DNA from: Deltaproteobacteria bacterium
GTDB lineage: Bacteria; Desulfobacterota; Syntrophia; Syntrophales; UBA2210
Reading direction: 5' to 3'
Assembly: GCA_016933215.1 (NCBI GenBank)
Contig: JAFGBH010000027.1
Location: 1-42,633 of the forward strand
Length of the DNA: 42,633 nt
Shown here piece by piece: positions 3,476 to 17,302 of this stretch. The position numbers and the translations under genes were made by a program. The notes beneath the pieces were generated by a model that was not told the DNA's origin, searched no databases, and saw only the letters and a program-made list of their open reading frames with translations. Position 1 is the first letter of the stretch. Each line of letters opens with the position of its first letter.

Positions 3476-4765
3476 CTACCCTATTTCCTTTCGCTTACTA
3501 CTTTCCGAAGATTCAGGTATTGTTTCAAAAAGTAAAATTGGTTTTTCTTTGTTTAATACGACTTCTTCGCTGATTAAACATTCCCTGACATCTTTTCTCG
3601 AAGGAATATCGTACATGATATCGAGCATGGTGTTCTCCATGATTGACTGCAGGCCTCTCGCACCCGACTTACGTTCTGCGGAACACTTTGCAATTGCCTT
3701 CAGGGCATTGTCGGTAAAGGTAAGCTTTACATTCTCAAGTTCAAACATCTTCTTATACTGCTTCACGAGAGAGTTTTTCGGTTCAACAAGAATTTTCACA
3801 AGGTCATCTTCACTTAAATCAAAAAGAGTTCCGACAACGGGCAGCCTCCCGACAAACTCGGGGATCAATCCGTATTGTAGCAGGTCCTCGGGTTGATTTT
3901 CCGATAAAACCTCGCCAATGTTCTTTTCTTTTCTGCTCTTGATTCTGGCACCAAAACCCACTGCATTGACACCAATTCTCTTCTCGATTATCTCCCGTAA
4001 TCCGTTAAAGGCCCCCCCGCATATAAACAGTATGTTCGTGGTATCCACCTGAATAAATTCCTGTTGGGGATGTTTCCTCCCCCCTTTGGGAGGTACGTTC
4101 GCAAGCGTTCCCTCAATGATCTTGAGAAGGGCCTGCTGAACGCCTTCACCCGATACGTCTCTCGTTATTGAAGGGTTGCCCGATTTTCTCGATATTTTGT
4201 CTATCTCGTCAATATAGACGATTCCTCTCGATGCCCTTTGTACATCATAATCGGCATTCTGAAGCAGACTCAGGATGATATTCTCCACATCCTCTCCCAC
4301 ATACCCCGCTTCGGTCAATGTCGTAGCATCGGCAATAGTGAAGGGTACATTCAGCATCCTTGCAAGTGTTCGTGCCAGGAGCGTCTTTCCCGAACCGGTG
4401 GGACCGACGAGCAGAATGTTACTCTTTTGTAGCTCTATACCATCTCGGTTGACTTCCGAAAACAGCCTCTTATAGTGATTGTATACGGCAACGGAAAGTA
4501 TCTTTTTTGTTCTGTCCTGACCTACCACATACTGATCAAGAAACTTCTTTATATCCTTGGGTTCAGGTATTTCTTCTTTTGTCTCCCTTATGTCCTGAAC
4601 GTTTCCTTCCTCTTCCACGATACACCGGCAGAGCTCGATACATTCATCGCATATATAGGCAGAAGGTCCCGCAACAAGTTTCCGAACTTCATTTTGGGTC
4701 TTCCCACAAAAGGAACAAAAAAGCATGTCGTTTTCTCCCTCGCGACCTGAATTTCGTTTGTTCAT
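3476..4765 (-). CDS. clpX: ATP-dependent Clp protease ATP-binding subunit ClpX
   Basis: 429 residues. ClpX is the AAA+ unfoldase that recognises tagged proteins and feeds them into ClpP. The N-terminal zinc-binding domain has Cys17-x2-Cys20 and Cys39-x2-Cys42. The AAA+ domain has Walker A GPTGSGKT at 121-128 and a DEIDK Walker B. The RKSGARGL box lies near the C-terminus. The start at 4765 is supported by AGGAGGG about 8 nt upstream; a later Met14 would also keep the zinc site but has no better ribosome site. It lies 12 nt downstream of clpP and 4 nt upstream of lon, so it is clearly part of one operon. Confidence 0.98.
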
Positions 4766-4777
4766 TAAACGTCCCTC

Positions 4778-5374
4778 CTATCGGCTCAGCGATGACCTTT
4801 TGACTATGACCTCGTCTATTATACCATACTCCTTTGCCTGTTCGCTCGTCATGTAAAAGTCTCTGTCCGTATCTTTCTCCACCTTTTTCACAGACTGCCC
4901 CGTATGGCTTGCAAGAATCTCATTCAGTTCATTCTTCAGTCTCAAAATCTCCCTCGCTTGTATGCCCACATCGGTCGCCTGCCCCTGTGATCCCCCAAGC
5001 GGCTGATGTATAATTATTCGGGAGTTCGGCAGGGCATAGCGTTTGCTCTTTTCCCCTGCCGCAAGGAGCAAGGCCCCCATACTGGCCGCCTGTCCCATAC
5101 AAACGGTGCATACGGAGGGTTTTATGTATTGCATTGTATCATATATGGCCAGGCCGGCACTGACTATCCCGCCCGGTGTGTTGAGATAAAAGTATATATC
5201 CTTATCAGGGTCATCGGATTCGAGGTAGAGAAGTTGAGCAATAACGAGATTCGCCACCTCATCATCCACGGAAGTACCGAGAAATATGATCCTGTCCTTC
5301 AGAAGCCTTGAATAGATATCAAAGGCTCTCTCCCCCCTTCCGTCCTGTTCGATGACCATCGGAATTAGAGTCAT
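4778..5374 (-). CDS. clpP: ATP-dependent Clp protease proteolytic subunit ClpP
   Basis: 198 residues, typical of ClpP. It forms the double-heptamer serine peptidase chamber that works with ClpX. The catalytic triad is complete: Ser98 in GQAASMG, His123 in IIIHQPLGG, and Asp172 in DTDRDFYM. The start codon overlaps the tig stop (ATGA at 5371-5374), which implies translational coupling. The start agrees with family N-termini ([10 protein letters not shown]). Confidence 0.98.
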
Positions 5375-6711
5375 TTACCCGCTTCCTCCTCTTTCGTCTC
5401 CCCTTTTTTCTTCTTTATGGTCTTTATTATTGCCTTGTCCTCGATAAATTCAAGGGTCTTTTTCTCCAGGATCTCATTTTTGAGTCCCTCAATAAGATTG
5501 TTTTTTTCATAGGTTTCCTTTACCGTCTCAAAATCCCTTGCGGTTTGAGTGGCAATCTCCTTGAGGCTCTCCTCTATCTCGTTTTCTTCTACCGTAATGG
5601 ATTCCTTTTCCGCAATCTTATTTAAAAGGAGCGTCGATTTCACCATTCTTGTTGCCTGATCCTGAAATCTGTCATGTAAATTCGCGCTTATCTCCACGAC
5701 TTTGTCCGGCGCCATTCCGTTTCGTATCATCCTCTGCTGCGCATCCAGGGTCATGATATAAATCTGCCGTTCGATCCAGACGGACGGAACATCGAAATCA
5801 TTTTTTTCCAGAAGAGCATCCACTATTTTTTTTGTTACTTCGGACTTAATATTTGCCTTTTTTTCCTCTTCAATTGATTTTTTTATATCTTTTTTCAGGT
5901 CATCGAAGGACTCGTATTTTTCAAAATTTTTTATAAATTCACCGTCAAGCTCCGGCACCCTTTTCTCCCGGATATCCTTTATCGTGACGGAATAAACACC
6001 CTCCTTCCCCGAAATCTCCTTTGTGTCGAAATTGTCGGGAAATGTCATAGCGACTTTCTTCGTCTCCCCCTTTTTTAGACCCTCCAGTTTATCTTCAAAA
6101 CCGGGCATGAACATCCCTGCTCCAAGCTGAAGCATATAGTTGTTGGAAGCGAGCTCTTTCCTTTCCTTTCCATCAACGGTTACCTCAAAATCGATAATGG
6201 CGAAGTCGCCCTCTTTGAGCCCCCGTTCCTCTTTTACGTCTTCAAGTGTTGCATACATCTCTCTCAGCTGATCAAGCCTGTTGTCGACATCTTTTTTTGT
6301 TACTTTCAGTTCGGCTTTTTCTACCTCGATACCGGTATAATCCTTCGGATCAACCACCGGATGTATCTCAACGGTTGCGGTATAATTAAAACTCTGTTCT
6401 CTTTCTATGCCCTTCTGATCGATTATAGGCTGATCAATCGGCATGATATCATTTTTTTCCAGGGCCTCCAGATACGATTTGGATACCAGACTTGAGATTG
6501 CCTCGCCTTCCGCCTCATCCCGGTAATGAACCTCAAGAACCTTTCTCGGCACCTTACCAGGCCTGAATCCCTTTATCCGGGCCTTTTTGCCCACCACCAG
6601 ATAGGCCGAATCTATCTCATTTTTCACGTCTGACCAGGGTATCTCAAATGACAGCTTTTTCTTTACAGAGTTGATTTCTTCAATTTTAACTTCCGAGGTA
6701 ACTTCGCCCAC
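5371..6711 (-). CDS. tig: Trigger factor (ribosome-associated chaperone)
   Basis: 446 residues. Trigger factor binds the ribosome exit tunnel and shields nascent chains. The ribosome-docking signature GFRPGKVP is at 48-55. A central FKBP-type peptidyl-prolyl isomerase domain (about 160-250, with [10 protein letters not shown]) and a helical C-terminal substrate cradle follow. The start is GTG at 6711, with AAGGAG about 8 nt upstream. It begins 26 nt after the 3' end of tRNA-Leu with no hairpin between, so it should share the tRNA promoter at 6842-6870. It is followed by clpP with a 4-nt overlap. Confidence 0.97.
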
Positions 6712-15391: not shown

Positions 15392-15450
15392 AATATAATG
15401 ATTGATGAAAGAATTACAAGGAACAAAAAGGAGAGGACACTTCATAGGTA

Positions 15451-15603
15451 TTGACAATATATTGACTCCTGTGATAGGCAACTCGAACCGCTTGGATCAC
15501 CTGAGCAAGGGACTGAGACGGAAAAGGTCGAAGAATTATTTTGTTATGTTTCGTTTAATATATGGCCCTTTCCGATTTCAGGCGGGAGGGCTTTTTTGTT
15601 GCT
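15451..15603 (+). promoter_or_regulatory. Structured leader of DUF2520-panB with terminator-like hairpin
   Basis: TTGACA at 15451-15456 is a possible -35 box; the -10 (around 15474) is weak. Downstream, TCGAACC (15483-15489) can pair with GGTCGA (15526-15531), leaving a bulged A, and the enclosed 36 nt can fold further (CTTG with CAAG). Next, GCCCTTTCC (15565-15573) pairs with the GGCGGGAGGGC segment (15581-15591), followed by six T (15592-15597), like an intrinsic terminator. The GGGAGGG in that 3' arm is the only Shine-Dalgarno for the ATG at 15604, so folding could block both elongation and initiation. A pantothenate-linked RNA family (pan motif) is known upstream of panB in some bacteria; I cannot confirm a match. 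Confidence 0.5.
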
Positions 15604-16491
15604 ATGAAGAGAGATTCAATTGCCATTATCGGCCTCGGCAAGGTAGGCACCGCCTTAGGGTTCTTGCTGAGGTCTGCCGGCTATGAAATTGCCGCCGTTT
15701 CCGATGTGTCCCCCGAATCACTCATAAGGGGTGTCGAATTTACCGGCGGGAAGGCCTTTGCCGACGCCTCCCAGGCAGCATCGGAAGCTGATACCATATT
15801 TATCACGACGTGGGACGATGCTATCGAGACAACCTGTGAAGAGATCTCCCAAAAAGACTCTATAAGACCGGGCGACAAAGTCGTTCATGTCAGCGGTGCG
15901 GGAGGATTGGACATTCTTGCTTCAGCACGAAAGTGCGGGGCCTGCGTCGCGAGTATTCACCCCCTCCAGTCTTTTGCCGACACAAAAAGCGCTATCGAAA
16001 ACCTTCCCGGAAGCACCTTCGGCATAACGGCAAACGATGAGATATATGACTGGGCGGTGGAGATTGTCACGGCCCTTGGAGGTACACATTTTTCCGTCGC
16101 CGAAGAAGACAAACCCCTTCACCATGCAGCGGCATGTATGGCATCAAACTATCTCGTTACCCTTATGAGCATTGTCGAACAGATATACCAATCTCTCGGC
16201 CTGAAGGAAGATACGGCAATGAAGGCTTTCTGGCCTCTGGTTAAAGGAACAATCAAAAACATTGAAAAAAAAGGCATTGCGCCGTCTCTCACGGGTCCCA
16301 TCGCCCGCGGTGATATCGGGACATTAAAAAAACATCTCAGGGTTTTTCATATCAAGCACCCTTCCCTTTTACCCCTCTATCGGGAAATGGGAATATTCAC
16401 TGCAGATATTAGTCTTCACAATAAAACCCTGTCTGAAGAAAGGGCACAGGAAATCAAAACACTTCTAAGAGAGGAACAAAACGATGAGTAA
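15604..16491 (+). CDS. Rossmann-like DUF2520 protein, possible ketopantoate-type reductase
   Basis: 295 residues from ATG 15604; the upstream ATG at 15562 lacks a ribosome site. The N-terminal NAD(P)-binding fold starts [14 protein letters not shown] with GLGKVG at 10-15. SIHPLQSF and the helical domain with [15 protein letters not shown] match DUF2520 proteins, which resemble pyrroline-carboxylate and ketopantoate reductases. It overlaps panB by 8 nt (16484-16491). This coupling suggests that it makes the reductase step after PanB (ketopantoate to pantoate), replacing PanE. That role is an inference from position and fold; no panE or panC is visible here. Confidence 0.75.
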
Positions 16492-17302
16492 ACAGGGGAA
16501 AACAAACAAGGTAACAATTTCGACAATCCGCGAAATGAAAGCAAAAGGCGAAAAGATATCAATGTTGACGGCCTATGATTATTCAACGGCCCTGGTCGTT
16601 GATGAGGCAGGAATCGACATGATTCTCATAGGGGATTCTCTCGGCATGGTAATGCTCGGGTACGACAGCACAGTCCCCGTCACCATGGAAGATATGCTCC
16701 ATCATACAAAAGCGGTATCCCGGGCAGTAGAACATGCAATGGTTATTGCTGACATGCCCTTTATGTCATACCAGTGCTCACAGGATGAGGCGATAGCAAA
16801 CGCAGGCCGCTTTCTTAAAGAAGCCGGGGCTCACGGAATAAAGCTTGAGGGCGGGAGAGAAGTGGCTGATGTCGTGAGAAGGGTAGTGTCCGCGGGAATT
16901 CCCGTCATGGGACACCTCGGGCTCACTCCCCAGTCAATCCATCAGCTCGGAGGATACAAGGTTCAGGGAAAGAAAAAAGAGGCCGCCGAAAGAATGATCG
17001 AAGATGCCAAGATACTCGAAGAAGCGGGTGCATTTTCAGTTGTTCTGGAATGTGTACCGGAAAAACTGGCTGAAGAAATAACCGCTTCTCTTGAAATTTC
17101 TACGATCGGCATCGGAGCCGGGGTTCACTGCGACGGTCAGGTGCTTGTTGTCAACGATATGCTCGGAATGTTCGAAAAATTCACGCCCAAGTTCGTGAAA
17201 AAGTACGCAAACCTGAACACCCACATGAAAGAGGCGGTCAGTCAGTACATCGACGAGGTAAAATCAGAGGTGTTTCCGGGAAAGGAGCACTCCTTTTTAT
17301 AA
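16484..17302 (+). CDS. panB: 3-methyl-2-oxobutanoate hydroxymethyltransferase
   Basis: 272 residues, the usual PanB length. It adds a one-carbon unit from methylene-tetrahydrofolate to ketoisovalerate, giving ketopantoate for pantothenate and CoA. Signatures include [47 protein letters not shown] and [19 protein letters not shown]-type ribosome site AGAGGAA lies 9 nt before the ATG. It shares the leader at 15451 with the DUF2520 gene. The folP gene at 9895 supplies the folate branch it uses, though in a separate transcript. Confidence 0.97.

Follow-up and report, generated by a model that had tools for sequence, protein, structure and literature searches.

A predicted single-hairpin form of the pan RNA and a proposed transcription attenuator in the leader of a DUF2520-panB operon

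The pan motif RNA (RF01749) was listed in 2010 with its status as a switch left open (Weinberg et al. 2010, PMC2864571). A tandem arrangement was described for most of the known members, a wording that already implied single copies in 2010, and the discoverers proposed a protein-binding motif with the tandem copies suggesting a dimeric protein (PMC2864571). No paper on a pan ligand or a pan riboswitch and no later functional study was found in the literature searched. The window, the whole stretch of 42,633 nucleotides that was analysed, carries a leader that shares with the pan motif RNA the stem with two conserved bulged A residues, the GGAUC...GGAC core and the placement 5′ of panB, panC or panD operons. 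From its sequence the leader is assigned as an uncatalogued single-hairpin form of the pan RNA before a pantothenate (vitamin B5) operon, and what is new is the described single-hairpin architecture throughout the order rather than the notion that single copies exist.

The Rfam search of the leader at the gathering cut-off gives no match. A permissive search of 451 nt places pan RF01749 at 15428-15525 with 18.4 bits and E 1.1 over 4227 families, and the search with the pan covariance model suggested in an earlier note on this DNA returns a match containing both bulged A residues but falling under the gathering cut-off of 36.2 bits, which is set for a two-hairpin model. Only pan had been singled out beforehand, so the probability that matters is 1.1/4227, or about 3e-4, and not the E of 1.1. 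In the Rfam pan alignment the two bulged A residues of the motif correspond to A15496 and A15518, and across 60 leaders both show little or no variation. Model R1 gives 41.6 bits on the window (E 9.5e-10) with the next best match at 12 bits, a score that arises partly by construction since R1 is built from the alignment of 60 hairpins that includes the window. A second pan copy in the same genome is located 5′ of panC-panD and scores 29.3 bits, also under the 36.2-bit cut-off. PyrR (RF00515), ncr1575 and other sub-threshold Rfam matches are rejected as being far below cut-off and in the wrong context.

The anatomy of the leader (Table 1) is fixed across the order, with a TTGAC(A) promoter followed by one pan hairpin, which a linker of about 34 nt separates from a strong terminator and then the start codon. 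In virtually every leader of the order the TTGAC(A) element lies about 35-44 nt 5′ of the pan hairpin, and TGNTA(G/A) follows ~15 nt 3′ of it. The −10-like TGNTAG is unlike TATAAT and is found at a fixed distance to TTGACA, 5′ of both pan operons across the order. The transcript is predicted to start at about 15484-15487, a few bases 5′ of the single hairpin. At the other end of the leader the terminator finishes 6 nt from the ATG at 15604, and the GGGAGGG in its 3′ arm is the sole good Shine-Dalgarno of the window leader, 13 nt from the same ATG. A 94-codon open frame (15402-15686, +) spans the whole leader in another frame and shows no sign of being a gene.

Table 1. Positions of the leader elements and downstream genes in the window
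Feature	Position	Strand	Basis or remark
−35 box TTGACA	15451..15456	+	TTGAC(A) common to essentially all leaders of the order
−10-like element TGATAG	15472..15477	+	order consensus TGNTAG
Single pan-motif hairpin	15488..15521	+	Rfam pan 18.4 bits; model R1 41.6 bits; covariation in 60 leaders
Pan hairpin pairs	15488-15490/15519-15521, 15491-15495/15513-15517, 15497-15498/15511-15512	+	bulged A15496 and A15518
Proposed antiterminator 5′ strand (pan 3′ arm and flank)	15513..15529	+	duplex with 15564-15581, 16 pairs, −21.6 kcal/mol
Proposed antiterminator 3′ strand (terminator 5′ arm and loop)	15564..15581	+	duplex and prefix folds
Intrinsic terminator	15564..15597	+	hairpin 15564-15592, six T 15592-15597; −14.2 kcal/mol
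Shine-Dalgarno-like GGGAGGG in terminator 3′ arm	15584..15590	+	sequence; not universal in relatives
Rossmann-like/DUF2520 protein gene	15604..16491	+	PF10728 119.2 bits
panB, ketopantoate hydroxymethyltransferase	16484..17302	+	PF02548 415.4 bits; TIGR00222 360.5 bits

Three of these elements had been picked out in the earlier note and hold up, namely the −35 box, the terminator-like hairpin with six T before the start codon, an equivalent of which is present in 59 of the 63 leaders scanned in the order, and the only good Shine-Dalgarno lying in the 3′ arm of that hairpin. The bulged-A stem it had drawn (15483-15489 with 15526-15531, UCGAACC/GGUCGA) is present as sequence but is not conserved; its 5′ half falls at or before the predicted transcript start and is absent from relatives, and the stem is rejected, the conserved one being instead 15488-15498 with 15511-15521.

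The stability of the whole leader is not unusual compared with chance (z −0.96, and −0.60 in a second computation), so that folding energy alone is no proof of structure beyond chance, and it is the comparative evidence that provides it. Pan hits occur in 39 of the 41 genomes of the order, often two in each, with none of the 41 above the Rfam cut-off, which explains why genomes of the order are without pan annotation. The fetched loci lie 5′ of DUF2520-panB or panC-panD in 64 of 69 cases. Across the 60 aligned hairpins 97.4% of cells are paired and four pairs are changed on both sides, with compensatory changes at the outer stem, mid-stem and helix end; this set was first gathered by structure model, giving a slight lean to structure, and includes nearly every leader of both operons. 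The covariation score is reached by 0 of 500 shuffles and a slide of one column halves the pairing. Compensatory change in homologous leaders was the earlier note's own test of its proposal. Such change is present, and together with the real terminator and the pathway-specific gene context it supports a pan-type cis-regulatory leader 5′ of DUF2520-panB. Within the phylum of the window R1 matches at E <= 0.001 in 156 of 395 sampled genomes.

None of the 64 leaders examined in the order has a second bulged hairpin upstream, and the idea of a hidden tandem copy is rejected on this count. The conserved promoter fills the place that the would-be upstream hairpin would take. Five loci (L082, L088, L108, L136 and L139) pass the two-hairpin Rfam model though R1 shows one copy, meaning that single R1 copies outside the order are not proof of a single-hairpin form.

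Among all hairpins a terminator is located within 130 nt of 148/184, with a median linker of 34 nt, and is absent within 130 nt for the other 36/184. The pan 3′ arm and its flank are complementary to the terminator 5′ arm and loop, with CUGAGA/UUUCAG, CGGAAA/UUUCCG and GGUC/GGCC contributing to the 16 pairs of the window. As a strand is shared by both pairings, the long-range duplex on the one hand and the pan hairpin with the terminator on the other are predicted to exclude each other. The cognate duplex of the window at −21.6 kcal/mol is better than those with all 120 background terminators, which were drawn from the window and the fetched loci. Over 148 loci the cognate duplex has a mean z of −1.8 compared with dinucleotide shuffles, and 0 of 2000 partner permutations are as good as the cognate pairing, a test that shared base composition and descent could aid. 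In the minimum-energy fold of the RNA ending before the terminator 3′ arm, at least six duplex pairs are present in 73% of leaders compared with 31% with foreign terminators. Prefix folds of the growing window transcript pass from the pan hairpin to the long duplex and then to the pan hairpin together with the terminator. Within one gene class the edge of the cognate partner is small (−17.1 versus −16.4 and −13.8 versus −12.0), panB hairpin arms pair no worse with the terminators of panC leaders, and a good duplex is missing from about ten leaders.

The pattern CCGCYTGGATCC-N3-25-GGACYGRGACGG was scanned without gene reference over one genome per species (84,980 species) and gives at least 120 stretches. 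Among the matches listed, 111 of 120 stretches are placed 5′ of DUF2520, panB, panC or panD as assigned by BLAST. The other nine comprise panB or panC shortened by contig ends (L098, L151 and probably L160), a contig end (L111), one BioY operon (L088) and four SIS/HPS-RraA/PanE-like operons (L143 being partly masked). The titles among the matches listed, which are those given to MAGs by their submitters, include Deltaproteobacteria, Desulfobacterota, Nitrospinota, Acidobacteria, Myxococcales, Binatia, Dadabacteria, Methylomirabilis, Clostridia and Chloroflexi. In L088, a Clostridia record, the pan hairpin (6201-6235, −) lies 5′ of genes (3960-5973, −) for a BioY-family protein, an ECF transporter S-component and a type III pantothenate kinase, an operon that adds pantothenate uptake and phosphorylation to the pan gene list.

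A link between DUF2520 proteins and PanG-type ketopantoate reductase has been made in the literature (PMC4572677). The DUF2520 product of the window is possibly an enzyme of this type, in which case DUF2520-panB would form a two-step pantoate module, an assignment tempered by three ApbA_C proteins that are also encoded in the genome. In other genomes of the phylum a pan hairpin is found 5′ of an operon in which the gene for an HPS(HUMPS)-RraA fusion stands together with genes for a SIS protein and a PanE-like reductase (L081:2728-5587 +, L153, L076, L143 and L206-L229). Of the 395 phylum genomes sampled, 24 carry the fusion; they come from five families and 13 genera, and an R1 pan hairpin is upstream of it in 18 of the 24 (one weak, L226), with a divergent hairpin recognised by eye in L228. 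No panB is present in any of the 24 fusion genomes compared with 343/395 in the phylum sample overall, which makes the operon a candidate non-orthologous replacement of PanB; panC is kept in 24 of 25 genomes checked. It is conjectured that HPS and its SIS partner release formaldehyde and that the RraA-like aldolase joins it to ketoisovalerate. The five fusion families may descend from few events. No account of the HPS-RraA fusion as a PanB replacement was found in the literature searched, and the pan RNA served here as a pathway flag pointing to an operon that is a candidate to fill a gap in vitamin B5 synthesis.

The leader is proposed, with a probability of roughly 0.7, to be a transcription attenuator based on the single pan-motif hairpin. 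A signal of pantothenate/CoA sufficiency would stabilise the pan hairpin, allowing the terminator to form and turning DUF2520-panB off, whereas with the signal absent the emerging terminator 5′ arm would capture the pan 3′ arm, block the terminator and leave the operon on. The second copy 5′ of panC-panD would couple the rest of the pathway. The gene list is in keeping with feedback by pantothenate/CoA status. The pan motif would in this way gain a concrete expression platform and a predicted polarity, and the minimal single-hairpin form, with its clean gene list, is simple enough to assay.

The nature of the sensor divides the readings. One version of the attenuator explanation, with the sensor specified, has the 34-nt hairpin itself binding pantothenate, pantoate, phosphopantetheine or CoA and thereby favouring the terminator. 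Its near-invariant sequence over records titled from many phyla, the pathway-pure gene context, the switching platform and the want of an obvious universal protein partner bring this version close to an even chance, set against the great simplicity that an aptamer of one helix and a variable loop would have, the preference of the discoverers for a protein (PMC2864571) and a literature searched that holds no ligand. The inference of the earlier note that the leader senses pantothenate, CoA or a precursor is unproven. A second reading is a protein-dependent attenuator, in which a pathway protein or a dedicated regulator would act on the bulged hairpin in the manner of PyrR and favour the terminator. 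Helices with a bulged A are common protein sites, which speaks for this reading together with the tandem copies of other lineages. PanB is an unlikely binder of the pan hairpin and is rejected as a general RNA-binding regulator, as genomes that lack panB retain pan hairpins, and DUF2520 is missing from some of the controlled operons. A protein partner is plausible at somewhat less than an even chance. More tentative, and on balance doubtful, is the fuller proposal that the 34-nt helix with two bulged A residues is a complete metabolite aptamer for a compound of the pantothenate/CoA pathway, acting as an OFF switch via terminator and antiterminator in the order and perhaps by Shine-Dalgarno occlusion elsewhere, with a regulon of panB, panC, panD, a PanG-like reductase, the ECF transporter with pantothenate kinase, and the SIS/HPS-RraA/PanE-like operon standing in for PanB.

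Control at the level of translation only, with the buried Shine-Dalgarno as target and a terminator-like hairpin that does not terminate, is unlikely. It would account for the burial of the sole good Shine-Dalgarno, seen in this leader and those of its close relatives, and for hairpins that adjoin the start codon in L090 and L138, but the whole order retains the T run, and a separate Shine-Dalgarno lies 3′ of the T run in many panC and DUF2520 leaders. Of the dual control of transcription and translation envisaged in the earlier note, control by a buried Shine-Dalgarno is at most lineage-specific, such burial not being universal among relatives. In L090, L138, L095, L226 and L228 the pan hairpin is placed directly against the Shine-Dalgarno or start codon with no terminator between, as if the hairpin itself blocked ribosomes. 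In L122, L123, L133 and L083, which are Acidobacteria- and Terriglobia-type records, a stretch able to pair with the pan 3′ arm overlaps an anti-Shine-Dalgarno sequence; the overlap has p 0.01 in L122 and 0.03 in L083 and is not significant in most other Acidobacteria-titled loci, statistics that are weak and suggestive of a translational version of the switch in these loci. That the leader is a chance hairpin beside an ordinary terminator, as the unexceptional folding energy and the sub-cut-off Rfam hit might imply, is contradicted by the covariation, by the invariant bulges, by an unchanged location across about 40 genomes and by a gene-blind pattern that recovers the hairpin before the same genes, and can practically be set aside.

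Compared with the pan motif RNA of the Rfam model, the leader differs in having one hairpin in place of the tandem, a promoter directly upstream, a terminator/antiterminator arrangement, DUF2520 as the first gene and a score that stays under the cut-off in each of the order's 41 genomes. The PyrR-type attenuators (RF00515) resemble it only in the way they would work, with a bulged hairpin 5′ of a biosynthetic operon whose stabilisation would permit the terminator; the RF00515 match has 19 bits compared with a cut-off of 54 bits, the downstream genes are pan and not pyr genes, and no protein is known. Metabolite riboswitches with terminator platforms differ in that their sensors are multi-helix or pseudoknotted, whereas the candidate sensor here is a single helix with a variable loop and no ligand shown; the likeness, again only of working, lies in a sensor with terminator and an antiterminator that are predicted to be mutually exclusive folds, placed before the genes of one pathway.
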